The position numbers and the translations under genes were made by a program. DNA of 64,000 nucleotides from Synechococcus sp. PCC 7335 (lineage in GTDB: Bacteria; Cyanobacteriota; Cyanobacteriia; Phormidesmidales; Phormidesmidaceae), in contig NZ_DS989904.1 of the NCBI RefSeq assembly GCF_000155595.1, positions 1-64,000 of the forward strand, in the 5' to 3' direction. Below, piece by piece: positions 770 through 30,614 of this stretch (position 1 is the first letter of the stretch; every line of letters starts with the position of its first letter). The notes below the pieces were generated by a model. It was not told the origin of the DNA and did not search any database. It saw only the letters and a list, made by a program, of their open reading frames with translations.

Positions 770-1876
770 TTAGTCTGCTTTGGTCACATCGTCTTGAATC
801 TCAGCAGCTGTCTGCTTCATTTGTTCAGTAGCTTCGTTGATACGCTGTTTTGCCCGCTGCAGCCAGTTTTCACTACTATCTACAGGACTAGCCGACTCTC
901 GAATTTCGCTACGTGATCTGCCTAAATCCTCTCCAACAGTGCCCTTAGAATCAAAATCGATACTTTCAGCCTCTGACTTGTAAGCGCCAGATTGCGGAAC
1001 ATTGCTAGCATTAAGCATATCGCCATGAATACTGTTCACGCTGCTGTCGAGAGCTGGAGATTTGATAGGCGTTGAAACGTCCTGCGCACCAACTGATGAA
1101 GCACCCTGGATATCAGCTGACCCAAAGGTTACTGGGCGTAGCGTCTTGGCATTAGTTGTCCTGCCTGACTTTGTTTCATATTGCTCACTATCCACAATCA
1201 CAGTATCAGCAGACAACTTTTCTTCAACAGGTTTTTCTACAACTGGTCCGCTATCGGCCCCACTCTCAGGCGCAGCGGTGATAGGAATACCTGGCTTAGG
1301 AACCTCTGGATGAACCGAACCAGCATCAGGTGTCAGGTCGTGAGTAATACCACTATCAAAACCACTGATGATTCGATCGCTTTGATCAAGATCCAAATCA
1401 GTCCCTAGGGTGTCACTAACTTCCTCATCATCGGTGCGCTTAGCTGCGGCCCAAATCAATAGGGCCAGACCTGCGAGCGGCACTAGCAGCCACCACCATC
1501 TCCCTCGCTCAGCTAGTGGGTCGCTAGCACCACTCGACTCCACATCACTATCTATGGCTGGAACTATTGTTGGTATAGCGACATCGCCAGCAGTTTCACC
1601 AGGTTCAAGCTCAGCACCTAAGACCCCCTCTGTCCCTTCTGTAAGTAAATTACCGCTCGTATCAATCAGGTCACCTTCTGCGTTGACCAAAAAGCCTGCT
1701 GAATTGATCAAGTTACCCTCAGCATCAACCAGCTGGTTGCTAGCCTCAGCCTGGATTGGGGTGGTCTGTGATAGGGCTGGCAGTGTCTGATTGAACACCG
1801 TCGTCAGCTTGGTAGGAATAGCACAGGCGATTAGCGCCACGATTGCTAGAACTGGAACTCTTTCGTGATGAGCCAT
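770..1876 (-). CDS. hypothetical membrane protein with heptad glycine repeats
   Basis: Family not recognised. The 368-residue product starts with a hydrophobic segment (about residues 7-21) that could be a signal anchor. Residues 51-78 hold four tandem 7-residue repeats of the form [DN]-x-x-G-x-L-[IVL] (DAEGNLI, NSAGFLV, NAEGDLI, DTSGNLL). A second membrane helix rich in W and L follows at about residues 127-144 (WWWLLVPLAGLALLIWAA). The rest is an acidic, Ser/Asp/Pro-rich and probably disordered region. It ends in a charged helix (QRAKQRINEATEQMKQTAAE) that could form a coiled coil. The layout suggests a short segment outside the membrane and a long cytoplasmic or periplasmic tail. It sits between tilS (same strand) and the divergent min operon; neither gives a functional clue. 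Confidence 0.7.
   Translation of the reverse strand: MAHHERVPVLAIVALIACAIPTKLTTVFNQTLPALSQTTPIQAEASNQLVDAEGNLINSAGFLVNAEGDLIDTSGNLLTEGTEGVLGAELEPGETAGDVAIPTIVPAIDSDVESSGASDPLAERGRWWWLLVPLAGLALLIWAAAKRTDDEEVSDTLGTDLDLDQSDRIISGFDSGITHDLTPDAGSVHPEVPKPGIPITAAPESGADSGPVVEKPVEEKLSADTVIVDSEQYETKSGRTTNAKTLRPVTFGSADIQGASSVGAQDVSTPIKSPALDSSVNSIHGDMLNASNVPQSGAYKSEAESIDFDSKGTVGEDLGRSRSEIRESASPVDSSENWLQRAKQRINEATEQMKQTAAEIQDDVTKAD
1643..1726 (-). repeat. four 21-bp coding repeats (heptapeptide G-x-L)
   Basis: Codons 51-78 of the 770-1876 gene encode DAEGNLI, NSAGFLV, NAEGDLI and DTSGNLL in tandem. Gly is fixed at position 4 and Leu at position 6. DNA identity between units is only moderate, so the protein pattern looks selected rather than freshly duplicated. 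Confidence 0.7.
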
Positions 1877-4282: not shown

Positions 4283-5137
4283 ATGGCAATTCCTATTATC
4301 AGCGACCTACTAGAAAAATTCTTTGGGCCACCAGAAGACTCCCACAGCCGCGACGATGTCAAAAGAAGGCTTAAGTTTGTGCTAGCTCATGATCGCTTAG
4401 CCCTAGATCCTCAGACGCTAGAAATGATGCGTCAAGAGATTATCGCTGTTGTCTCTCGCTACGTAGAGATCGATTTTGATTCACTAGAATTCTCTCTAGG
4501 TACAGATCAGCGGATGACCACCCTAACCGCTAACTTACCTATTCGTCGTATCCGCTCTGTCAACCGTGGTCTAGGTGAGCCTATAGATTTAGAGGTGCCA
4601 GCTAGCAACGTCGAGCTGACCTCTCAGTCCGAGACAAAAGCAGCAGGTGCCACAGTTGATAAAGTCGCACCACAAAAGCTTAAGGAAGAAAATCTCAATG
4701 AGTCTGATTTAAACAACCAATCGCTAGATATCGATCGAACTGAAACGAGCAGTGAGCCAAACTTACCAGATAATTCCAACTCTAGTGACTCAGAGGTTAG
4801 TGACTTAGAGCTTAGTGATTCAGAACCTAACGATCCAAGATCAGGTGATTTGAGCAGCAATTTAGAAGTAGATAATTCAGCCTTAGATGATTCAGCCTTA
4901 GATGATTCGGAGCTTAATCAGTCAAAGCGCGAGATATCAAAGTTAGATGATTCAAGCTCAAGTAATTCAGAACTAGACAATCTAGCCAGTGAGCTTCCCA
5001 ACCAGAAAGGCAAACCAGAAGAAAATAACCAGGCCAAAGAATCCACTCATGAAGTCTCGGATACATCGATTTTAGAAGCATCGGACGAAACTACTATGAG
5101 TAAGGTTGAGCCCAGGAACAACGTAGACGTCGGATAA
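4283..5137 (+). CDS. minE: MinE cell division topological specificity factor with a long repeat-rich acidic C-terminal extension
   Basis: Residues 1-90 are a complete MinE: an N-terminal membrane and MinD-contacting segment (IISDLLEKFFG), the anti-MinCD helix region (RDDVKRRLKFVLAHDR) and the dimerisation domain ending in NLPIRRIR. MinE proteins are usually about 85-110 residues, but this frame continues to 284. Residues 91-165 are a polar linker. Residues 168-236 are about 14 units of five residues (SDSEV, SDLEL, SDSEP, DDSAL, DDSEL, NQSKR, EISKL, SNSEL) rich in Asp, Ser, Glu and Leu. The tail ends in another acidic stretch. It is open, in frame, and followed by stpA after only 14 bp. It is therefore translated unless a sequencing error removed an early stop. 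The function of the tail is unknown. Confidence 0.92.
   Translation: MAIPIISDLLEKFFGPPEDSHSRDDVKRRLKFVLAHDRLALDPQTLEMMRQEIIAVVSRYVEIDFDSLEFSLGTDQRMTTLTANLPIRRIRSVNRGLGEPIDLEVPASNVELTSQSETKAAGATVDKVAPQKLKEENLNESDLNNQSLDIDRTETSSEPNLPDNSNSSDSEVSDLELSDSEPNDPRSGDLSSNLEVDNSALDDSALDDSELNQSKREISKLDDSSSSNSELDNLASELPNQKGKPEENNQAKESTHEVSDTSILEASDETTMSKVEPRNNVDVG
4784..4990 (+). repeat. 15-bp coding repeats in the minE tail
   Basis: The tail of minE has a 15-bp period. The clearest units are GATAATTCAGCCTTA (4871-4885), GATGATTCAGCCTTA (4886-4900) and GATGATTCGGAGCTT (4901-4915). Flanking units are more diverged. The array encodes an acidic five-residue repeat with Leu often at position 5. Confidence 0.85.
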
Positions 5138-19862: not shown

Positions 19863-20140
19863 CTAAAAAACACTATTTTCTTGCGCTACAGCCAAAAGGT
19901 CTATGGAGGTGATCGGCTGTAAATTCAATCAGGTTGTCATTTATCTAGAATCAATGTGTTAGAGAATGACACCGAGCAATTAGCGTAGAGATAGGTTGGC
20001 TAGCATCGCCGTGATTGTTCTCGAAGTGTCTGGAGATGGCAATCAGCACTCGAAGCCTGATATAAAGTCTTGATCGTCTTTGCTTGTTTGATTTGTCCTT
20101 TTCGCTTGTTTGATTTCTTGTCCCTTCTTGGCCTGTCTCA

Positions 20141-21502
20141 ATGGCTTCCGCAATCCGCCGTGCTCGGCCTGCTCTCGATTTCATTCCGCCTAAGTACAGT
20201 CCACTGCTGCGACGCGTGATAGGACCGTTAATGCCTATATGGACTACCTGGCAGACAAACTTAGCTGAAGTAGAATCACATAATGTAGAAACTTTAGCCA
20301 AGCTCTATCACGAGTTTGAGTCAGGAAAAACTCGGTTATTGTTGGCTTTTCGCCATCCGAATCCAACTGATCCTTATGTGCTTAGCCATTTACTCTGGCG
20401 GGATTTGCCACAGACAGCCAAACAAATGGGTGTGCCCGTAGGAACAACGCACGCTCATTTTATCTACGATCGCGGAATTCCGCTGTGGGCCGGTGGCTAC
20501 CTAGGCTGGCTGTTTTCTAGGCTAGGAGGAGTGCCCATTCAAAGAGGTAAGTTGGATCTGCAAGCGCTGAAAACAGCACGAGATCTGTTCGTGAACGGTC
20601 AGTTCCCCCTAGCAGCAGCCCCAGAGGGCGGCAATAATGGTCACAACGAAATTGTCAGCCCGCTAGAGCCAGGAGTTGCCCAGCTAGCGTTCTGGTGTCA
20701 AGAAGATCTCATTGAGCAAGCGCGAGATACTAGCGTAGTAATTTTGCCATTGGGCATTCAATACCGCTATATAGAAGAGCCTTGGCAAGCAGTAGAGTCA
20801 ATGATGAGTCGGCTAGAGGCAGAAAGCGGACTAGAGCCTACGAGCGGGCTAGATCTATACGGACGGCTCTACCGACTAGCAGAGCATTTGCTGACGCTGA
20901 TGGAAGACTATTATCAGGAGTTCTATAGAGTAACGTTCAAGAGGGGGGATGAGTTTACAGAATCGATGGATGCTAACGATTTGCTGGCGACTCGGCTGCG
21001 ATCGCTGATCGATGAAGCCCTCAAAGTAGCAGAGCACTACTTTGGTTTACGCCCGAAAGGCTCAACCATTGACCGCTGTCGTAAGGTAGAACAAGCTGGG
21101 TGGGACCGCATCTTTCGAGGCGAAACAGAAACACTCTCCCCGGTGGAGCTAGGACTTGCCAATCGAGTCGCAGAAGAGGCCGATCTGCGAATGTGGCATA
21201 TGCGCCTAGTTGAAAGCTTTGTCGCTGTCACGGGTCACTATGTCAAAGAGCATCCGAGCGCTGATCGGTTTGCGGAGACCGCTTTGCTGCTAAGAGATAT
21301 GGTGGAGAAAATCAAGCGTAATCAAAACAGTCAGCCGGTCGTGTCAGGGCTGCCGCTAGGACCGCAGAGAGCGATCGCCACCGTTGGCGAACCAATTATG
21401 GTGGGGCCTCTGTTTGCTAGCTATAAGGCAAAAAGACGACAGGCGATCACATCGCTCACAGCGAAGCTGCAAGAACAGATGGAGTCATTGATTCTAACGT
21501 GA
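20141..21502 (+). CDS. 1-acyl-glycerol-3-phosphate acyltransferase-like protein (PlsC domain)
   Basis: A 453-residue protein with a PlsC-type acyltransferase core. The catalytic HxxxxD motif is HPNPTD at residues 72-77, and the substrate-binding motif lies in APEGGNNGHNE (about 166-176). A VILPLGIQYRY strand typical of motif IV follows. The domain covers about residues 55-220. The C-terminal 230 residues are helical (QEFYRVTFKRGDEFTES, FVAVTGHYVKEHP) and do not match an acyltransferase I know. The protein is therefore longer than standard PlsC (about 240). It likely acts on glycerolipid or another acyl acceptor at the membrane. ATG 20141. The 280-bp upstream spacer shows no feature. Confidence 0.82.
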   Translation: MASAIRRARPALDFIPPKYSPLLRRVIGPLMPIWTTWQTNLAEVESHNVETLAKLYHEFESGKTRLLLAFRHPNPTDPYVLSHLLWRDLPQTAKQMGVPVGTTHAHFIYDRGIPLWAGGYLGWLFSRLGGVPIQRGKLDLQALKTARDLFVNGQFPLAAAPEGGNNGHNEIVSPLEPGVAQLAFWCQEDLIEQARDTSVVILPLGIQYRYIEEPWQAVESMMSRLEAESGLEPTSGLDLYGRLYRLAEHLLTLMEDYYQEFYRVTFKRGDEFTESMDANDLLATRLRSLIDEALKVAEHYFGLRPKGSTIDRCRKVEQAGWDRIFRGETETLSPVELGLANRVAEEADLRMWHMRLVESFVAVTGHYVKEHPSADRFAETALLLRDMVEKIKRNQNSQPVVSGLPLGPQRAIATVGEPIMVGPLFASYKAKRRQAITSLTAKLQEQMESLILT

Positions 21503-21592
21503 CTTCATCTATGCTTCGGTGATAGCAATCCTGACCTAGGACTAGAATCCTGAGGTGATCTAGATAATTTATCTTTGGTTCTACAGCTTTAA

Positions 21593-22255
21593 TCACTTAG
21601 CTAAAGGCATCATCTTCTCAGCAATTACCGCGTAAAAAGGATCGCCACCGCCAAGACCCATCATTTGTAGAATAGCGGGCGCTTCTGATTTGTTGATCAC
21701 AGTTTCGATATTGCCAAAACCAGGAACAGACTCAAAGTAGCGCTTCACCAGTTCAACCCGGCTCGCTTCGCTACCGTCTCGCCAAAGTGCGATCGCCTTC
21801 TGATAAAACATTCGATTAGAGAAACTAAAAATTGCGATTCCACCAGGCTTTAGGACGCGATAGACTTCTGCAAACACCTGTTCAGGATACTGAATATATT
21901 GAACAGAAACGGTGTTGATCACCGCGTCAAAAGAACAATCTTCTAAAGGGAGAGTTTGGTTCTCGTTCAGGTTTTGCACAAAATAGTGATCGAGCTGTTT
22001 GTTGCGAGCAAGTTCTTCGGCATTCAGCCCATGTCCTTCAACATAGTCGTAGTCGATATCGCCTGGGAGATGGGAAACCCAGCTGCTCATCATATCGAAA
22101 ACACGGCTATTTGCAGGGATGCGATCGCGATACAGCTTTGTCAACTGAGCAATAAATCCTTCATCGACGTGGGTGACAAATCTAGGCTGTGCGTAAAACA
22201 GGGAATCATCCGAGGGATCGAGTTTGTTTCTTTGTGTGGTTTCTAACAGCATCAA
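21593..22255 (-). CDS. class I SAM-dependent methyltransferase, type 11
   Basis: A 220-residue soluble protein with the methyltransferase type 11 pattern in its centre. Present are FDAVINTVSVQYIQYPEQVF (motif around the catalytic loop), EVYRVLKPGGIAIFSFSNRMF and a preceding acidic VEGHGLNAEEL. The first SAM motif is atypical (VFDMMSSWVSHLP replaces the usual GxGxG), as in a group of plant and cyanobacterial proteins of this type. Substrate unknown. ATG 22255; a second ATG follows immediately. The gene is divergent from the guanidine operon and shares a 366-bp region with it. Whether it is functionally linked to that operon is unknown. Confidence 0.8.
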   Translation of the reverse strand: MMLLETTQRNKLDPSDDSLFYAQPRFVTHVDEGFIAQLTKLYRDRIPANSRVFDMMSSWVSHLPGDIDYDYVEGHGLNAEELARNKQLDHYFVQNLNENQTLPLEDCSFDAVINTVSVQYIQYPEQVFAEVYRVLKPGGIAIFSFSNRMFYQKAIALWRDGSEASRVELVKRYFESVPGFGNIETVINKSEAPAILQMMGLGGGDPFYAVIAEKMMPLAK

Positions 22256-22621
22256 TAAAGGCGTAGGTGAATTCTCTTTTAGTGTAGAGAATTGTGAGTG
22301 GGTCCGCAGCGAATAGAGTGGCTACCAAAGCGATACGTTGAGACTTATTGCAGCGATTGTGGTCCTAGTCCTTTTTTATAGCAATGGTCGGATGCATACT
22401 CTGCGAGAAGGCAAAGCCTACGGTCATTGCTAGACCACTTAGCTCTTCATGCATCAAGGGTTTCAGCCCTAGAAAATGTGTAGAGCTAAGTAGCGAAAAT
22501 TATAGTAGTGTGCATAGAGTGTTCTTTTATCTCTTTTTTAGGATTAGCTGCTTCATAATTGCCTATATCTCTAGCATTTAGACTCTAGCGTTTAGACACA
22601 ATCCCTCCAGGTGACCCTCCT
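22256..22621. promoter_or_regulatory. divergent region between methyltransferase and guanidine operon
   Basis: It must contain promoters for both directions. The middle holds a set of nested inverted repeats (22360-22489) described separately. A T-rich segment lies at 22520-22545. The GTGACC-like purine-poor stretch directly before ATG 22622 offers no strong ribosome site. A 65-codon frame on the plus strand (22384-22581) crosses the hairpins and is not considered a gene. Confidence 0.5.
22360..22489 (+). ncRNA. candidate structured leader of the gdmH operon
   Basis: Several helices are nested or in series. TGGTC (22360-22364) pairs with GACCA (22433-22437), enclosing GCAATG (22381-22386) with CATTGC (22425-22430). 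Inside these AGGC (22409-22412) pairs with GCCT (22416-22419). A second domain has a perfect 8-bp stem, TTAGCTCT (22439-22446) with AGAGCTAA (22482-22489), around an AGGG/CCCT hairpin (22457-22470). The hallmark ACACGG of guanidine-I riboswitches and the ACGR loops of the II class were not found. The element ends 132 bp before gdmH. Pairing is seen; a regulatory role is inference. Confidence 0.4.
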
Positions 22622-23809
22622 ATGACCGATTCCCCTACGTCTCAAAATCCCGATGGATCTTCACGTAGCGAGGCTGACTATGCCCTAGAAAAAGAGGCCA
22701 GGCTACCTTTGACTGGCTGGCAGCAAGAAGTCGATCAGGGTCTGACGTTTGGTTTAGAAGCAGCTGAAAGTATTCGCGATCGCTCCATTCCCACCTTTTC
22801 TAGGGGTGAGCTGCCTCACTATGCTGGTATCACTACTTTTCTCAAAGCACCCTACGTAGAAGATGTCCGTCAGGTTGGAAACTATGATGTCGCTATCGTC
22901 GGCGTACCCCACGATTCTGGTACCACCTACCGTCCCGGTACGCGCTTTGGGCCGCAGGGCATCCGTCGTATCTCGGCGCTGTATACCCCCTACAACTTTG
23001 AGCTAGGTGTCGATTTACGAGAACAGATCACACTGTGCGATGTAGGCGACATTTTCACTATTCCAGCGAACAACGAAAAGTCCTTCGACCAGATCTCTAA
23101 GGGAATTGCCCACATCTTCAGCTCTGGTGCGTTTCCAATTATTCTAGGCGGAGATCATTCCATCGGCTTTCCCACTGTTCGCGGTGTCTGCCGTCACCTA
23201 GGCGATAAGAAAGTAGGCATTATCCACTTTGATCGCCATGTCGATACTCAAGAGACCGATCTAGATGAGCGAATGCATACCTGCCCTTGGTTCCATGCCA
23301 CCAATATGGCGAATGCGCCTGCTAAAAATCTGGTACAGCTAGGCATCGGCGGTTGGCAAGTTCCGCGCCCAGGGGTCAAAGTATGTAGGGAGCGAGCAAC
23401 TAACATCTTGACCGTCACTGACATCACAGAAATGGGGCTAGACGCAGCCGTAGACTTCGCGCTAGAACGGGCAATGGATGGCACCGATTGCGTCTATATC
23501 AGCTTTGATATTGACTGTATTGATGCGGGTTTTGTACCTGGAACAGGCTGGCCTGAGCCGGGTGGTTTACTGCCTCGCGAAGCGCTTTATATGCTAGGCA
23601 AAATTGTCTCGAAAGCGCCCGTTTGCGGCTTAGAAGTTGTTGAAGTATCGCCCCCTTATGATATCAGCGATATCACGTCGCTGATGGCAACTAGAGTCAT
23701 CTGTGATACGATGGCGCACTTGGTGCTTTCGGGCCAACTACCTAGAGCTGGCAAACCAGACTACATTCATGAAGAGGCTGATATGAGCCTTGGCAGTAGC
23801 TGGGAATGA
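22622..23809 (+). CDS. gdmH: guanidine hydrolase GdmH-type ureohydrolase (agmatinase family)
   Basis: Arginase/agmatinase superfamily enzyme of 395 residues. The six metal ligands are present: H179 (GGDHS), D204, H206, D208 (FDRHVD) and D296, D298 (SFDIDCID). It differs from ordinary agmatinase by an N-terminal extension of about 80 residues, by FDRH instead of FDAH, and by the segment DAGFVPGTGWPEPGG. These features, and the HypA/HypB and ABC genes that follow in the order known from Synechocystis sll1077-sll1082, match the nickel-dependent guanidine hydrolase that yields urea and ammonia. Older annotation would read agmatinase (speB). ATG 22622 is clear. It is the first gene of the operon; a 42-bp gap leads to the next. 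Confidence 0.88.
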   Translation: MTDSPTSQNPDGSSRSEADYALEKEARLPLTGWQQEVDQGLTFGLEAAESIRDRSIPTFSRGELPHYAGITTFLKAPYVEDVRQVGNYDVAIVGVPHDSGTTYRPGTRFGPQGIRRISALYTPYNFELGVDLREQITLCDVGDIFTIPANNEKSFDQISKGIAHIFSSGAFPIILGGDHSIGFPTVRGVCRHLGDKKVGIIHFDRHVDTQETDLDERMHTCPWFHATNMANAPAKNLVQLGIGGWQVPRPGVKVCRERATNILTVTDITEMGLDAAVDFALERAMDGTDCVYISFDIDCIDAGFVPGTGWPEPGGLLPREALYMLGKIVSKAPVCGLEVVEVSPPYDISDITSLMATRVICDTMAHLVLSGQLPRAGKPDYIHEEADMSLGSSWE

Positions 23810-23851
23810 GCAGTCAAGAAAGCAGCAAACTCATGGCGGTTTGAGTAGATC

Positions 23852-24202
23852 ATGCATGAAACCGATATGACCAAAGCGCTCATCTTTACTGTTAAAGGTT
23901 GGCTAGCTGAGCAACCTGGGCATCCAGCTGTTGAACGAGTGCATCTAACAGTAGGTGAGTTCACTTGTGTAGAGCCGGTTAGTCTGAAGTTTGCGTTTGA
24001 GGCGCAAACGCAAGGGACGTTTTTGGACGGTGTGGAACTGGTGATTGACGAAACTCCCTTGATCGCATTTTGTCATCGGTGTCAGCACGAGTACAGGCCG
24101 CAGATAGGATTGCAATATGCTTGTCCATCTTGCCAATCGCCGATGGATGATATTCGTTCTGGGCGAGAACTAAAGATTGGTCGGGTAGAGTTTTCCGTTT
24201 AG
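23852..24202 (+). CDS. hypA: HypA-like nickel chaperone (guanidine hydrolase accessory)
   Basis: A 116-residue HypA-family protein. The N-terminal nickel-binding start MHE is intact. The zinc site is C74-x2-C77 and C91-x2-C94 (FCHRCQ, YACPSCQ). VERVHLTVGEFTCVEP and LKFAFEAQTQGT are typical of the core. HypA normally helps HypB insert nickel in NiFe hydrogenase, but no hydrogenase genes are here. Its place between gdmH and hypB suggests it matures the nickel centre of the guanidine hydrolase, as reported for Sll1078 (GhaA). ATG 23852 is required by the MHE motif. Confidence 0.9.
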   Translation: MHETDMTKALIFTVKGWLAEQPGHPAVERVHLTVGEFTCVEPVSLKFAFEAQTQGTFLDGVELVIDETPLIAFCHRCQHEYRPQIGLQYACPSCQSPMDDIRSGRELKIGRVEFSV

Positions 24203-24226
24203 AGCCGTTTAGAGAAAAGTAACCGT

Positions 24227-24931
24227 ATGCATCAGACATTTGACGCCGCTTTAGAGCTAAATTTGCTTCATGCCAATCAGCACGGGGCCGACCAAAATCG
24301 CGATCGCCTAAACGCATGGGGCATCACCTGCCTCAACTTGATGAGTTCTCCAGGATCAGGCAAAACTCAGCTACTAGAACAGACATTGAAGCTGCTACAG
24401 GCTGAACTGCGAATGGCGGTGATAGAAGGAGATATGACCACTCAGCTAGATGCCGATCGGCTGCGCCAGCACAACGTGCCGGTGATCGCCATCAATACAG
24501 GCCGGGCTTGCCACCTAGACTCCAAGATGGTTGCCGGTGGGCTGCATCAGTTTTCTCATGAACAGCAGCCTGAAAAATTTGACCTAATGTTTGTTGAGAA
24601 CGTAGGTAACCTGGTGTGCCCTGCCGAGTTTGAAGTAGGAGAGCATGCCAAAGTTGCGCTGCTAAGCATCACAGAGGGTGAAGACAAGCCGCTTAAGTAT
24701 CCCATTATGTTCCGAGAGGCGGACTGTCTATTGATTGCGAAGACAGATCTAGCCCCCTATCTAGATGTTGACATCCAAAAAATCGTCAAAAATGTACGTC
24801 AGCTAAATTCTAAGGTAGTCATTATCCCGGTTTCAGCTAAGACAGGAGAAGGGTTGGATGTATGGTGTGACTGGATCAAACAGTGCATTGTCAATCAGAA
24901 TCATACTTCTAAAAGCGTAGCCGCACGATAG
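24227..24931 (+). CDS. hypB: HypB-like GTPase, nickel insertion (guanidine hydrolase accessory)
   Basis: A G3E-family GTPase of 234 residues. The P-loop is SPGSGKT (residues 41-47), then [12 protein letters not shown], a Cys-His pair in [11 protein letters not shown] (the metal site between subunits), [13 protein letters not shown] and a base-recognition segment AKTDLAP. It lacks the His-rich N-terminal nickel store of some HypB proteins. It starts 24 bp after hypA. The likely client is the adjacent GdmH-type enzyme rather than hydrogenase, as for Sll1079 (GhaB) of Synechocystis. A 153-bp gap precedes the transporter genes. Confidence 0.92.
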
Positions 24932-25084
24932 GCTAACGCCTTCTACCCAAGCGCTACGGAACATACCTTGGTACTTAGCAGTTTGATAGTCAGTAAGTAA
25001 CTGGTAGCATTCGCTACCATGCGTGGTTGCGTTTTTCGGCACCATACATCGCTGTACTTTCAATTTCTTGCCTTACGTTTTTAT

Positions 25085-26131
25085 ATGAAAAGACGTCAGC
25101 TTATCTCGCTGTGCTTAGCCTTCTTCTGCACTCTATTTTTCACAATTGGCTGCGGAGGCCCATCCGCGGATAGCGGCGAGAGTGAGCCAGGAAGTGAAGC
25201 GGCTAGCGAACCTGCTGGTGAGGCGATCGTGATTGGATACAGCAACTGGGCTGGCTGGTGGCCCTGGGCGATCGCGCAAGAAGAAGGTTTATTTGCGGCC
25301 AATAACGTCAACGTTGAGATGCGCTGGTTTGATGGCTATGTTGAATCAATGGAGGCGTTTGCGGCCGGTCAGCTAGATGGCAACTGTCAAACGCTCAATG
25401 ACACGATTTCATTCGCAGCCGAGGCCGTCAATGGAGAGGTGGCGGTTCTAGTCAATGACAACTCTGCAGGCAATGACAAAATCATTGTGACTGAGGAGAT
25501 CAACTCGGTTGCTGATTTGGTCGGCAAGCAGGTTGCGGTAGAAGAAGGCGTCGTGGATGACTTTCTGCTAACGCTTGCTTTAGAAGAAGAAGGATTTTCT
25601 CGAGAGGATGTTGAGATTGTGCCGCTAGAAACCGGGGCAGCAGCGGCGGCATTTGCCGCTGGGCAAGTAGATGCTGTGGGCGCTTTTCCGCCTTTTTGGC
25701 TAACCGCTTTAGAGCGCGAAGGCAGTAAAGAGCTATTGTCATCTAATGATTTCCCAGGGGCCATTCCCGACCTACTCGTGATGAGCCAAACCATCATTGA
25801 TGAACGGCCTGAAGATGTACAGGCGATCGTCAATACCTGGTTTGATACGCTGGCGTTTATGGAAGAGAACCCCGAGCGCGCTGACGAGATTATGGCGGCT
25901 AGAGCCGATGTCACGGTAGAAGAGCTACAGCTATTCAAAGAAGGCACTCGGATGTTTACGATAGAAGACAACTTGGAAGCCTTTAGCGACGGTGATGATA
26001 TCAAGCATTTGTCTGCTGCTGCTGAGGAAATGGCGGAGTTCATGGTAGGGGTTGGGTTTATTCCAGAAGCACCTGATCTAGAAGCGATTTTAGACGATCA
26101 GTTTGTTACCGCCTATGCGGAAGCTCAATAG
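25085..26131 (+). CDS. ABC transporter substrate-binding lipoprotein, NMT1/SsuA-like (probable guanidine importer)
   Basis: The first 23 residues are a lipoprotein signal (KRR start, hydrophobic core, FFTIGC with the lipid Cys at 23). An acidic Ser/Gly/Glu linker follows. The binding domain starts at IVIGYSNWAGWWPWAIAQEEGLF, typical of NMT1/THI5 and SsuA proteins. AAFAAGQVDAVGAFPPFW lies in the second lobe. The ATG at 25085 is chosen because it gives a proper signal peptide; an upstream ATG at 25019 would add 22 residues. It sits in the position of sll1080, so guanidine is the probable ligand. The permease starts directly after its stop codon. Confidence 0.88.
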   Translation: MKRRQLISLCLAFFCTLFFTIGCGGPSADSGESEPGSEAASEPAGEAIVIGYSNWAGWWPWAIAQEEGLFAANNVNVEMRWFDGYVESMEAFAAGQLDGNCQTLNDTISFAAEAVNGEVAVLVNDNSAGNDKIIVTEEINSVADLVGKQVAVEEGVVDDFLLTLALEEEGFSREDVEIVPLETGAAAAAFAAGQVDAVGAFPPFWLTALEREGSKELLSSNDFPGAIPDLLVMSQTIIDERPEDVQAIVNTWFDTLAFMEENPERADEIMAARADVTVEELQLFKEGTRMFTIEDNLEAFSDGDDIKHLSAAAEEMAEFMVGVGFIPEAPDLEAILDDQFVTAYAEAQ

Positions 26132-26983
26132 ATGAGTGTAGAATCTGGCTCTGCTTATTCGCCCATCACGCTGCTAGCTAAGCGTAAAAGCATGCAGCCT
26201 AAGCTGTTTTGGCGACTAGGTGAGCCGATTCCGTCTGGTCTAAATTGGGGGCTGCGGACGGCTTCTGTTGTGGTTCCGATTTTTCTTTGGTGGCTACTAG
26301 CCAATAGCGGTCTAGTTAATCCCAAATTTTTGCCTTCTCCAGTTGAGGTGATTGCTGCGTTTGGCAGACTATGGGAAAAAGGGCTATTCATTGATGATGT
26401 GACGGCAAGTGTCAGGCGAGTTGGTATTGGATTCTTGCTATCCGCCATCATCTCGGTACCTTTAGGAATTGGCATGGGAGCGTTTGCGGCAGTGCGATCG
26501 CTGCTTGAGCCACTGATTGGCATCGTTCGCTACATGCCTGCGCCTGCTTTTATCCCACTGCTCATTATCTATCTGGGTTTAGATGAAGCGCCGAAGATTG
26601 CTCTGATTTTTATTGGGGTGATCTTCTTTAATACGCTGATGATTATGGACGCGGTGAAGTTTGTTCCAAAGCACCTGCTAGAGGCAACCTATACGCTCGG
26701 CGGCTCGCGCGCCCAAACGCTTTTACAGGTGATCACACCCTACGTGGTGCCAAACATTCTAGATGCGTTTCGAATCAATATGGCAGCGGCTTGGAACTTG
26801 GTGGTAGTCGCAGAGCTAATCGCCGCGAATGAGGGACTAGGAAAGCGGATTGCGATCGCCCAAAAATTCTTTCGTACCGACGAGATCTTCGCCTATCTCA
26901 TTGTGTTAGGCGTAATTGGTTTCTTAATTGACCTTTCTCTAAAGCTGTTGCTAAAGGCAACTTGCAAATGGGCGGTCGACTAA
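26132..26983 (+). CDS. ABC transporter permease, SsuC/TauC-like
   Basis: A 283-residue inner membrane subunit with about six helices. The first is SVVVPIFLWWLLANSGL after a 40-residue cytoplasmic N-terminus. The conserved EAA loop lies at LLEATYTLGGSRAQTLLQVITP, contacting the ATPase. SVRRVGIGFLLSAIISVPLGIGMG and EPLIGIVRYMPAPAFIPLLI are typical of the nitrate/sulfonate/taurine-type permeases. Its ATG immediately follows the stop of the binding protein, and its TAA overlaps the ATG of the ATPase by one base (TAATG), so translation is coupled. Corresponds to sll1081. Confidence 0.92.
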   Translation: MSVESGSAYSPITLLAKRKSMQPKLFWRLGEPIPSGLNWGLRTASVVVPIFLWWLLANSGLVNPKFLPSPVEVIAAFGRLWEKGLFIDDVTASVRRVGIGFLLSAIISVPLGIGMGAFAAVRSLLEPLIGIVRYMPAPAFIPLLIIYLGLDEAPKIALIFIGVIFFNTLMIMDAVKFVPKHLLEATYTLGGSRAQTLLQVITPYVVPNILDAFRINMAAAWNLVVVAELIAANEGLGKRIAIAQKFFRTDEIFAYLIVLGVIGFLIDLSLKLLLKATCKWAVD

Positions 26984-27744
26984 TGCATCTCGAAGTTTCC
27001 AAGCTACATAAGCAGTTTGAGACAAGTAAAGGAACGATTCAGGTGCTAGAGAATCTCAACTTGCATGTAGAGCAAGGCGAGTTTGTCTGTGTCGTCGGTG
27101 CTTCTGGTTCTGGAAAATCTACGCTGCTAAGACTGATTGCCGGGTTGGAGCGGCCTACTTCAGGCACCATTGAGGTAGATGCCGATTCTGTAGTGGGGCC
27201 GGGTGCGGATAGAGGTATGGTGTTTCAAGACTACACGCTCTATCCGTGGATGAGCGTACAAAAGAATGTAGAATTTGGGCTAAAGCTGCAGGGTATTGAT
27301 AAGAAGACTCGACGGGAGCAGGCTTCGTATTATCTTGAGATGGTAAGACTCACTCAGTTTGCCGCAGCGCTGCCAAAGCAGCTATCCGGGGGAATGAAAC
27401 AAAGAGTTGCGATCGCCAGGGCTCTGACTAGCCAACCCAAAATTTTGCTAATGGATGAGCCATTTGGTGCGCTTGATGTGCAAACCAAAGAGAATATGCA
27501 ACAGTTCCTACTGGATCTATGGGAGAAAACTGGGACTAGCATCTTAATGATTACCCATGATGTCAGAGAAGCAGTCTTTTTGTCGCAGCGAATCTATGTG
27601 ATGACGGCTAGGCCTGGCACGGTGAAAAAAGAGATCGAAGTAGAACTAGGGCGATCACGCCAGCAAAAAACAAGAGAACTACCGCAGTTTAAAAACTATC
27701 AAGATGCCGTGATGGTAGAGCTGACTACACCCAATCATCAATAG
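26983..27744 (+). CDS. ABC transporter ATP-binding protein, SsuB/TauB-like
   Basis: A 253-residue nucleotide-binding subunit: Walker A GASGSGKST (residues 39-47), Q-loop in MVFQDYTLYPWMSV, signature LSGGMKQRVAIARAL, Walker B LLMDEPFGALD and the switch histidine in ITHDVREA. The C-terminal region is short, without an extra regulatory domain. Start ATG 26983 overlaps the permease stop; a TTG 21 bases upstream is less likely. It is the last gene of the operon and corresponds to sll1082. Two hairpins follow downstream (27803-27869). Confidence 0.93.
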   Translation: MHLEVSKLHKQFETSKGTIQVLENLNLHVEQGEFVCVVGASGSGKSTLLRLIAGLERPTSGTIEVDADSVVGPGADRGMVFQDYTLYPWMSVQKNVEFGLKLQGIDKKTRREQASYYLEMVRLTQFAAALPKQLSGGMKQRVAIARALTSQPKILLMDEPFGALDVQTKENMQQFLLDLWEKTGTSILMITHDVREAVFLSQRIYVMTARPGTVKKEIEVELGRSRQQKTRELPQFKNYQDAVMVELTTPNHQ

Positions 27745-27802
27745 AATTGACGCAGCGCAGTTAGAAGATGCGCTAACGAGGAATAGCTACGTAGCATCAA
27801 AG

Positions 27803-27869
27803 CCTATCTGCGTGATAGGGAAGGCTAAGGACCATTTAGCTATTGAATTTAGCGACTGAGCTAAATGGT
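27803..27869. terminator. two hairpins between the guanidine operon and acnB
   Basis: CCTATC (27803-27808) pairs with GATAGG (27814-27819) around TGCGT. Next ACCATTTAGCT (27831-27841) pairs perfectly with AGCTAAATGGT (27859-27869) over 11 bp with a 17-nt loop. Neither has a T run. They could end the operon, stabilise its 3' end, or belong to the acnB leader. Confidence 0.4.
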
Positions 27870-28004
27870 ACGCACAGATGCAACCCTTATTTCTCAAGTC
27901 TCCGGCAGTATTTCACCAATCGATGACTCGACAATAGGCAAATCGAGCCATAATAATAGCTTTGGATATCCCTCCACTAGAATAGAAAGAAAGAGAGTGC
28001 CCTA

Positions 28005-30614
28005 ATGCTTGAGTCTTATCGCAACCATGTTGAAAAACGCGCTGAGCTAAACGTGCCACCGCTGCCGCTGGATGCCGATCAGACCTCGGCGCTTTGCGAC
28101 TTACTCAAAGCGCCGCCTGCGGGTGAAGAAAATTTTCTGATGACGCTGCTGTGCGATCGCATCTCTCCTGGCGTCGATCCTTCCTCCTATGTCAAAGCCT
28201 CTTTCTTGACTGCTATTGCCAAAGGCGAAACCAATAGCCCACTGCTCTCTCCCAAAAAGGCTGTCGAGCTTCTAGGGACTATGCTCGGCGGCTATAATGT
28301 CGCTTCTTTGATTGAGCTACTCAAGGACGACCGCGAAGAGATTGCTCAGCTTGCAGCAGACGCGCTGAAGAAAACACTGCTGATATATGATGCTTTCAAC
28401 GATATCCTCGAACTCTCTGCAACGAACGACTACGCTAAACAGGTTGTAGAGTCTTGGGCCAATGCCGAGTGGTTTACCAGCAAACCCGAAGTCGCCCAGT
28501 CAATCACCTTGACTGTGTTCAAAGTCCCTGGCGAAACCAATACCGACGATCTTTCCCCAGCGCCACACGCGACGACTAGACCTGATATTCCTTTGCATGC
28601 TCAGGTAATGCTGGAATCCAAGATGGATGATCCGCTAGGTACGTTGGCTAAGTTGAAAGAAAAAGGACATGCGATCGCCTACGTTGGCGATGTCGTCGGT
28701 ACCGGCTCTTCACGTAAATCCGCTATGAACTCCGTTATCTGGCATATCGGCGCAGATATTCCCTTTGTTCCCAATAAGCGAACGGGCGGTTTTATTCTCG
28801 GTAGCAAGATCGCGCCTATCTTCTTCAACACGGCTGAAGACTCAGGCGCCATGCCAATCGAATGCGACGTGTCCAAAATGAACACGGGCGACGTGATCAC
28901 TATCCATCCCTATAAGGGCGAGATCACTGCCGGGGAAGCAACCAACGCAGGCGAGGTGATCTCTACCTTCACCCTTACGCCCGAAACCATCCTCGACGAA
29001 GTCCGCGCAGGCGGTCGCATCCCACTCATCATTGGTCGTTCTCTTACTGACAAAACTCGAATCGCGCTAGGATTAGAGCCCTCAGATGTGTTCGTACGCC
29101 CTTCTGCCCCAGTAGACACTGGCAGAGGTTTCACCCTCGCTCAAAAGATGGTCGGCAAAGCCTGTGGTCTTCCTGGCGTTCGCCCTGGCACCTCCTGTGA
29201 GCCCTTAATGACTACCGTCGGCTCACAAGACACCACTGGCCCAATGACTCGCGATGAGATGAAAGAGTTAGCCTGTTTAGGCTTCAGTGCCGGTCTCGTA
29301 CTCCAAACCTTTTGCCATACCGCCGCCTATCCCAAACCTATAGATGTTCAAACCCATGCGACCCTACCTGACTTCTTCGCCTCTCGCGGCGGCGTGGCGC
29401 TAGAACCTGGTGATGGCATCATCCACTCCTGGCTCAACAGAATGCTGTTGCCTGACACTGTCGGCACAGGCGGAGACTCACACACTCGCTTTCCGCTTGG
29501 CATCTCCTTCCCTGCAGGTTCAGGGCTAGTCGCCTTTGCCGCTGCAATTGGGGCAATGCCCCTGGACATGCCTGAATCTGTTTTAGTGCGATTCAAAGGA
29601 GAACTACAGCCTGGTATCACCTTGCGCGATGTTGTCAACGCAATTCCTCTAGTTGCCATCCAAAAGGGGCTTCTAACCGTAGAAAAAGAGAACAAAAAGA
29701 ATGTATTTTCAGGCCGCATTCTAGAAATGGAAGGACTGCCTGATCTTAAGCTGGAACAAGCCTTCGAGCTGACTGACGCCTCAGCCGAACGCTCTTGTGC
29801 AGGCTGTACGATCAAGCTCAGCGAAGAAACTACCGCTGAATATCTACGCTCGAACATCTCTTTGATGAAAAACATGATCGCCCGCGGCTATCACGACGAA
29901 AGAACGCTTGCTCGTCGCATTGCTGAAATGGAGAAATGGCTAGAAAATCCAACCCTAATGAGCGCAGACGCGGACGCAGACTATGCTGAAGTCATTGAAA
30001 TTGATCTCAACGAGCTGAAAGAACCTATTGTTGCAGCGCCTAACGATCCTGATAACGTCAAGACGCTCTCCGATGTTGTGGGAGATAAAATCGACGAAGT
30101 CTTCATTGGCTCTTGTATGACCAATATTGGTCACTACCGCGCTGCCGCTAAAGTGCTAGAAAACGAAGGCACCGTCAAAGGTCGCCTCTGGATTTGTCCG
30201 CCCACTCGTATGGATGAACAACAGCTTCGCAAAGAAGGCTACTATGGCACCTTTGCAGCTTCTGGTGCTCGTACGGAGATGCCTGGATGTTCTCTGTGCA
30301 TGGGCAACCAAGCGCGCGTAGAAGATGGCGTTACTGTCTTTTCTACCTCTACTCGCAACTTCAACAACAGAATGGGCAAAGGCGCTCAGGTTTACTTAGG
30401 CTCTGCCGAACTCGCTGCCGCCTGCGCTTTGTTAGGTCGTATTCCAGATATGAAAGAGTATCTAGAAGTGGTTGCTAGCAAGATTGATCCGTTTGAAGAT
30501 GAAGTGTATCGCTACCTTAACTTCAATGAAATTAGAGGATTTGAAGATGAGGGCCGGGTAATTCCAAAAGAAGAAGAAGAAAAGATCGAGAAAGAGGCTA
30601 TGGCAATCAAGTAA
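28005..30614 (+). CDS. acnB: aconitate hydratase B
   Basis: AcnB interconverts citrate and isocitrate, with a labile 4Fe-4S cluster. The 869-residue chain has the AcnB-specific order: an N-terminal HEAT-like domain (residues 1-160), the swivel domain next ([36 protein letters not shown]), then the catalytic domains. These include [33 protein letters not shown] and the cluster cysteines in GSCMTNIGH and [12 protein letters not shown]. Length matches the family (about 860). The C-terminus is a charged EEEEKIEKE tail. ATG 28005 follows a purine-rich GAAAGAAAGAGAG tract. It is a single-gene unit in this window. Confidence 0.97.

Follow-up and report, generated by a model that had tools for sequence, protein, structure and literature searches.

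The window analysed in this study, a 64,000-nucleotide stretch of Synechococcus sp. PCC 7335 (positions 1 to 64,000 of contig NZ_DS989904.1, forward strand), contains six plus-strand open reading frames (ORFs) at 22622-27744 encoding an arginase-family enzyme (GdmH), HypA- and HypB-like proteins, and the substrate-binding protein, permease and ATPase of an ATP-binding cassette (ABC) importer. These genes almost certainly constitute a cyanobacterial guanidine-utilization operon, for which we infer the substrate, metal, transport and mode of regulation; most simply, it has lost its guanidine-I riboswitch. The gene content and order, the clades, the signature residues, the urease alpha subunit, a separate hydrogenase with its own HypA and HypB, and the absence of the riboswitch were all observed directly. 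The system has already been described in Synechocystis (sll1077-1082); the window operon is an ordinary new member of it, and the missing riboswitch is its sole unusual feature.

In the proposed pathway, guanidine would enter the cell via the ABC importer, nickel would be loaded into GdmH by the HypA/HypB-like pair, GdmH would hydrolyse guanidine, yielding urea and ammonia, of which the urea would be split by a urease encoded elsewhere in the genome. The urease alpha subunit was found in this genome and in all 58 GdmH genomes, that is, those with a GdmH match at E<=1e-100 among the 386 genomes sampled from the phylum. Given this subunit, the urea is probably further usable. Urease small-subunit and accessory genes were recognized by eye among the ORFs, without a family search. 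Urease is also encoded elsewhere in the genome in the model genomes of PMC11410670 (papers with PMC numbers are cited here from excerpts).

Operon organization

The six ORFs span 22622-23809 (gdmH), 23852-24202 (hypA-like), 24227-24931 (hypB-like), 25019-26131 (substrate-binding protein), 26132-26983 (permease) and 26962-27744 (ATPase), with intergenic gaps of 42, 24, 87 or 153, 0 and -1 bases in that order. The start of the binding-protein gene is ambiguous (25019 or 25085), and 25085 is possibly the true start, judging from the signal-peptide-like MKRRQLISL...GCG. The ATPase ATG at 26983 shares one base with the permease stop, and the ORF list has an upstream TTG at 26962. A previous reading of this DNA from its letters and ORFs (the sequence-only reading) had described six consecutive plus-strand genes, the last three joined by zero- or one-base junctions; the genes were found at these coordinates, and the junctions are correct provided that the ATPase starts at ATG 26983.

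Family searches of the six proteins returned the arginase family, HypA, CobW/HypB, an NMT1/SsuA-like binding protein, a permease and an ABC ATPase. The binding protein, probably a lipoprotein, is SsuA/NMT1-like and of the sll1080 type (TIGR01728 282.7 bits, cut-off 163.5; NMT1_2), the permease is of the sll1081 type (BPD_transp_1), and the ATPase (26983-27744, alternatively from TTG 26962) is of the sll1082 type (ABC_tran; junction). The three were assigned as a putative guanidine importer by position and resemblance to sll1080-1082, both the direction of transport and the substrate being predictions.

The window operon matches Synechocystis sll1077-sll1082 in all six genes and in their order, as had been recognized from the letters alone, and belongs to this gene-order type. 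Relatives were compared using the best 80 of 379 loci from a scan of named genomes, a set that leans towards close relatives. The order gdmH-hypA-hypB-binding protein-permease-ATPase was the commonest (49/80). Only gdmH-hypA-hypB was found in 14 loci, gdmH alone in 6, only gdmH-hypA in 5, and other arrangements in 6; the downstream sequence was available over the whole 7 kb in 9, 2 and 1 loci of the first three classes, respectively.

Identity of the enzyme

The gdmH gene (22622-23809, plus strand) encodes a predicted Ni-dependent guanidine hydrolase of 395 amino acids. In a phmmer search of PDB, the product matched 7esr/7oi1 over residues 15-395 at a level well outside chance (E 4.4e-239), followed by 9fek (1.1e-176), which we take to be the N. 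inopinata enzyme, after which the values fell to 1.1e-49. PDB 7OI1 is treated as the Synechocystis guanidinase in PMC11410670. The arginase domain of GdmH starts at residue 89, and the protein retains the full set of six arginase-superfamily metal ligands (H179, D204, H206, D208, D296 and D298). The ligands, as well as the FDRH and GFVPGTGWPEPGG motifs seen in the translation, agree with what had been claimed for this protein.

Guanidinases have been inferred from T105 and W313 of N. inopinata (PMC11410670), and the window GdmH has both equivalents, T102 and W310. They were examined in an alignment of 55 ureohydrolases, consisting of 12 of the 80 named GdmH loci, 41 sequences from a PF00491 search of 59 genomes (a part of its matches), the window protein and E. 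coli SpeB. The W310 site holds Trp in 23/23 GdmH rows and Thr in 32/32 others. Thr at 102 is less discriminating, as it also occurs in several non-GdmH ureohydrolases, leaving Trp as the discriminating residue. A maximum-likelihood tree computed from these 55 rows (54 distinct) placed the 23 GdmH rows in one clade with support of 100/98, and SpeB and the 31 other ureohydrolases, among which several long-branch warnings were raised, fell outside it. The closest relative of the window GdmH in this tree shares 91% identity with it. We identify the enzyme as a guanidine hydrolase (GdmH), not an agmatinase, with substrate and metal predicted from homology; its placement away from SpeB bears out the earlier statement that it is unlike agmatinase. 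No other arginase-family gene scored above cut-off in the genome. A second PF00491 match at C2:483907-484068 was weak, below cut-off and crossed a stop codon, and was set aside as chance or a remnant.

HypA/HypB-like chaperones

The two genes downstream of gdmH encode a putative nickel metallochaperone of 116 amino acids (hypA-like, 23852-24202, plus strand) and a putative nickel GTPase of 234 amino acids (hypB-like, 24227-24931, plus strand). The operon HypA contains H2-E3 and two CxxC pairs, and is 79% identical to the gdmH-linked copy of Phormidesmis priestleyi and 37% identical to the other HypA of the genome. The operon HypB is 40% identical to the hydrogenase-side HypB of the genome, and alignment revealed that it lacks the N-terminal CxxCGC, a motif shared by the second HypB of the genome and E. 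coli HypB. The sequence-only reading had suggested looking elsewhere for a hydrogenase accompanied by hypA/hypB of its own; a NiFe hydrogenase with nearby hypA and hypB was located on contig C2, separate from the operon.

A HypB tree was built from 47 proteins: 24 of 69 GdmH-linked copies, the window protein, 21 copies located elsewhere in GdmH genomes, and E. coli HypB. The 21 elsewhere-located copies, taken irrespective of hydrogenase adjacency, include the hydrogenase-side one of this genome. The 25 GdmH-linked rows formed one group with support of 100/99, which also took in a stray copy from G215, whose genome gave no hydrogenase match. The operon HypB was thereby grouped apart from the genome's hydrogenase-side HypB and from E. 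coli HypB. The HypBs not linked to GdmH did not form one group, as five of them and E. coli HypB were closer to the GdmH-linked group than the other fifteen. With the hydrogenase on contig C2 and no CxxCGC in the operon HypB, the pair does not belong with hydrogenase HypA/HypB. It adjoins gdmH and its HypB lies in a distinct clade, and was assigned to the GhaA/GhaB type, the published names of the Synechocystis chaperone pair (PMC10094980), the clade test covering HypB only. The claim that the operon HypA/HypB are not hydrogenase factors is consistent with this position of HypB among GdmH-linked HypBs.

In 54 of the 58 GdmH genomes, a HypB lies no more than 6 kb from gdmH. Among the 36 with a hydrogenase match (weak and below cut-off in one, G332), 34 have one HypB in that range and one elsewhere. 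Among the 22 without a hydrogenase match, HypB was near only in 17, near and far in 2, far only in 1, and not found in 2. This distribution supports, without proving, that the operon pair would serve GdmH. The two genomes in the last class, G121 and G159, carry GdmH and the riboswitch, but neither a HypB at E<=1e-40 nor a hydrogenase match.

Absence of the guanidine-I riboswitch

The guanidine-I riboswitch (RF00442) was detected in 52 of the 58 GdmH genomes (51 above the Rfam gathering score), each with a copy 32-183 bases upstream of gdmH; this search used E<=0.001 and stricter filters that can lose weak matches. The six without it were the window genome, G215 of the same family, G058, G083, G324 and G332, and G170, also of the same family, has it. 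A cyanobacterial guanidine-I model built from 20 cyanobacterial copies matched upstream of gdmH in 70 of the 80 loci, 42-334 bases away, 20 of the 70 being the building rows themselves. The nearest relatives, L047, L048 and L060, carry the riboswitch according to Rfam's model too, and L062 and L074 were reported by the cyanobacterial model and scored below the Rfam gathering score. Ten loci had no riboswitch directly upstream, which is a count of loci and not of independent losses; one of them (L084) has just 376 bases of upstream sequence, and another (L071) has a weak 26-bit match on the opposite strand, facing importer genes.

No guanidine riboswitch was found in the 366 bases upstream of the window gdmH (22256-22621, plus strand). 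Rfam returned no match at E<=5 for 22100-25200. With filters off, the cyanobacterial model gave only an antisense 5-bit match at 22528-22604 in the upstream region, and only weak matches in 20000-30000, the best of which (8.9 bits) was antisense and far from the leader. In the whole genome, RF00442 had no match at E<=0.001 and the best match of the cyanobacterial model had an E value of 4.2. A degraded remnant was also considered and rejected, as nothing recognizable remained in the alignment with the upstream region of L048 or with the cyanobacterial model, filters off. Loss in the window lineage would be the simplest reading, in which case guanidine sensing by a guanidine-I RNA would be unavailable to the operon. 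An upstream riboswitch is a usual feature of such operons, not a universal one, and hence its absence does not exclude the window operon from them. The absence had gone unnoticed in the sequence-only reading.

Regulation of the operon

No strict NtcA site (GTA-N8-TAC) was present in 22256-22621, where two one-mismatch sites occur at 22480 and 22490. A strict NtcA-like site lies at 25004-25017, between hypB and the binding-protein gene, and is one of 9 in the 64 kb window. In relatives, 5 of 54 had a strict site in the 250 bases upstream of the binding-protein match, against about 2-3 expected by our own arithmetic. As there is no strict site before gdmH and sites like that at 25004 are not clearly above chance, NtcA control was not supported. 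A structured replacement leader was likewise unsupported, since the predicted RNA fold of 22370-22621 had a z of -0.32 (75 of 200 shuffles folded as well) and the upstream region 22256-22621 had no significant match among the loci compared. Two adjacent inverted repeats are present upstream of gdmH at 22379-22432 and 22437-22491, also without a significant match among those loci.

No regulator gene adjoins the operon, the divergent neighbour being a methyltransferase gene. None of the 80 loci (flanks of up to 7 kb, many shorter) had a match at E<=1e-8 to the acyltransferase, methyltransferase and aconitase genes that flank the window operon, so riboswitch loss by relocation is possible, and the operon may have left its riboswitch leader behind. 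Upstream ORFs were listed for 8 of the 10 riboswitch-less loci, and a candidate regulator was searched against Pfam in three. An Lrp/AsnC regulator adjoins the gdmH locus in L076 (779-1243, minus strand) and a TetR regulator that in L113 (6256-6876, plus strand); the candidate in L072 had no Pfam match. Riboswitch control may have been exchanged for protein control in L076 and L113.

Alternative explanations

Several observations count against a guanidine operon in which enzyme, chaperones and importer belong together and the riboswitch is gone. A window-like substrate-binding protein was not found in 25 of the 80 loci, partly because of contig ends, the HypB tree carries long-branch warnings where its groups meet, and G121 and G159 (2 of the 58 GdmH genomes) have no HypB at the threshold given above. 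Comammox guanidinases are described, in the excerpted text of PMC11410670, without nickel chaperones near the riboswitch region. In addition, the genome is 95% complete, and a riboswitch could lie in unassembled DNA, with none found upstream of the operon. Because of the 25 loci without the binding protein, and the nine three-gene loci that were fully searched, importer and enzyme are not strictly linked; because of the HypB-less GdmH genomes and the chaperone-less comammox regions, the chaperones may assist GdmH rather than be required. The enzyme could otherwise be an agmatinase or another ureohydrolase, adjoined by hydrogenase factors that were placed there by chance. The best-scoring NCBIfam models do name agmatinase (TIGR01230, 172.3 bits, below its cut-off of 174.3), hydrogenase HypA (TIGR00100, 114.3 bits, above 88.1) and hydrogenase HypB (TIGR00073, 299.5 bits, above 121.2), and no other candidate agmatinase was found, gdmH being the sole arginase-family gene above cut-off. 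Against this stand the exclusion of SpeB and 31 other ureohydrolases from the GdmH group, the restriction of W310 to GdmH rows among the 55 compared, the hydrogenase's own adjoining hypA and hypB, and the operon HypB, which lacks CxxCGC and is placed among GdmH-linked HypBs; moreover, extracts of a Synechococcus strain expressing Sll1077 broke down guanidine, not agmatine (PMC8390497). We give this explanation next to no credence. As the agmatinase model was barely missed and the HypA and HypB equivalog models were passed, an automatic pipeline is likely to misname all three proteins, just as the sequence-only reading had warned, and the present assignment corrects three probable mis-annotations. 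The operon might instead be a decaying or unexpressed remnant left after riboswitch loss, which would fit the absence of the riboswitch and the situation in G215 of the same family, likewise without a riboswitch and with hypB on another contig. Yet none of the six reading frames is interrupted and protein conservation is high, GdmH being 91% identical to its nearest tree relative, and a remnant seems very improbable. Overall, the computable evidence favours the guanidine-operon interpretation already proposed for this DNA, substrate, metal and transport specificity remaining predictions.

Guanidine may still be sensed by an RNA leader that is strongly diverged or of an unknown kind, or by a regulator whose gene lies elsewhere, which concerns regulation only and is therefore compatible with the functional explanation. 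The adjacent inverted repeats (22379-22432 and 22437-22491) and the Lrp/AsnC and TetR genes neighbouring riboswitch-less L076 and L113 speak for such sensing; the unremarkable leader fold (z -0.32, 75/200 shuffles as good), the upstream region without a significant match among the loci compared, the lack of an adjacent regulator, and the negative result of the cyanobacterial riboswitch model run without filters speak against it, and we hold it to be a tentative and rather unlikely possibility. An ordinary promoter would probably drive the operon, either constitutively or depending on nitrogen status. That the operon has been uncoupled from guanidine sensing, the riboswitch having been lost, perhaps on relocation, and the conserved pathway being constitutive or under general nitrogen control, has in our judgement about an even chance of being correct. 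If true, the uncoupled operon would be a natural test of the riboswitch's purpose: should expression be guanidine-independent, comparison with riboswitch-bearing relatives could show why guanidine needs a dedicated sensor.

Variant gdmH loci in relatives

In L110 (Candidatus Paraprochloron terpiosi), the importer genes directly follow gdmH, and neither window-like hypA/hypB nor a riboswitch was found in the locus. In Leptolyngbya sp. BC1307, two guanidine-I riboswitches are arranged divergently (L058:519-628, minus strand, and 915-1024, plus strand), and no window-like hyp or importer genes were found in the 7 kb downstream of its gdmH. In the riboswitch-less, same-family genome G215, gdmH is found with hypA in L072 (apparently the contig G215:C87, L018), and a GdmH-type hypB lies on a separate contig (G215:C12:30453-31088, L148), adjoining a family 3 solute-binding protein.

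A sodium:solute symporter gene adjoins gdmH in three loci (L057:3170-4675 and 4815-4930, both minus strand; L101:8221-9708, plus strand; L095:5055-6530, minus strand), and a window-like ABC importer was not found in these loci. PF00474 was confirmed for the L057 and L095 symporters, and one of the three symporters sits behind its own divergent guanidine-I riboswitch. L100 carries a symporter fragment besides the ABC importer. The symporter is a candidate alternative guanidine importer. A literature search returned no paper joining guanidine, riboswitch and sodium solute symporter, a broader match being to C. difficile riboswitches.

Comparison with known systems

E. coli SpeB shares the arginase superfamily and metal ligands with the window GdmH, but lies outside the GdmH group and has S and T at the positions of T102 and W310. 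The metformin hydrolase MefH is, like the window enzyme as predicted, a Ni-dependent ureohydrolase activated by adjacent HypA/HypB, but it is heteromeric and acts on another substrate (PMC11399263), and its match to the window GdmH is far weaker (best subunit E 1.8e-41). The Nitrospira inopinata guanidinase shares the enzyme family and signature residues, whereas its surroundings differ in having an APC permease, no nearby nickel chaperones in the text excerpted, and a riboswitch (PMC11410670).

Closer to the window operon is that of Synechocystis sp. PCC 6803, sll1077-sll1082, with the same six genes in the same order (PMC10094980, PMC8390497) and an enzyme (PDB 7esr/7oi1) that the window GdmH matches over residues 15-395. 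It has an upstream guanidine-I riboswitch (PMC8390497, PMC12186494), which was not found in the window. In marine picocyanobacteria, the same cluster also occurs with a riboswitch (PMC10119275). The window adds a clear guanidine-utilization operon whose nearest operon relatives are of the Phormidesmis and Pseudanabaenaceae types. The nearest whole operon, from Phormidesmis priestleyi ULC027bin1 (L048), has the same order and 77-89% protein identity, and differs from that of the window in carrying a guanidine-I riboswitch 125 bases upstream.

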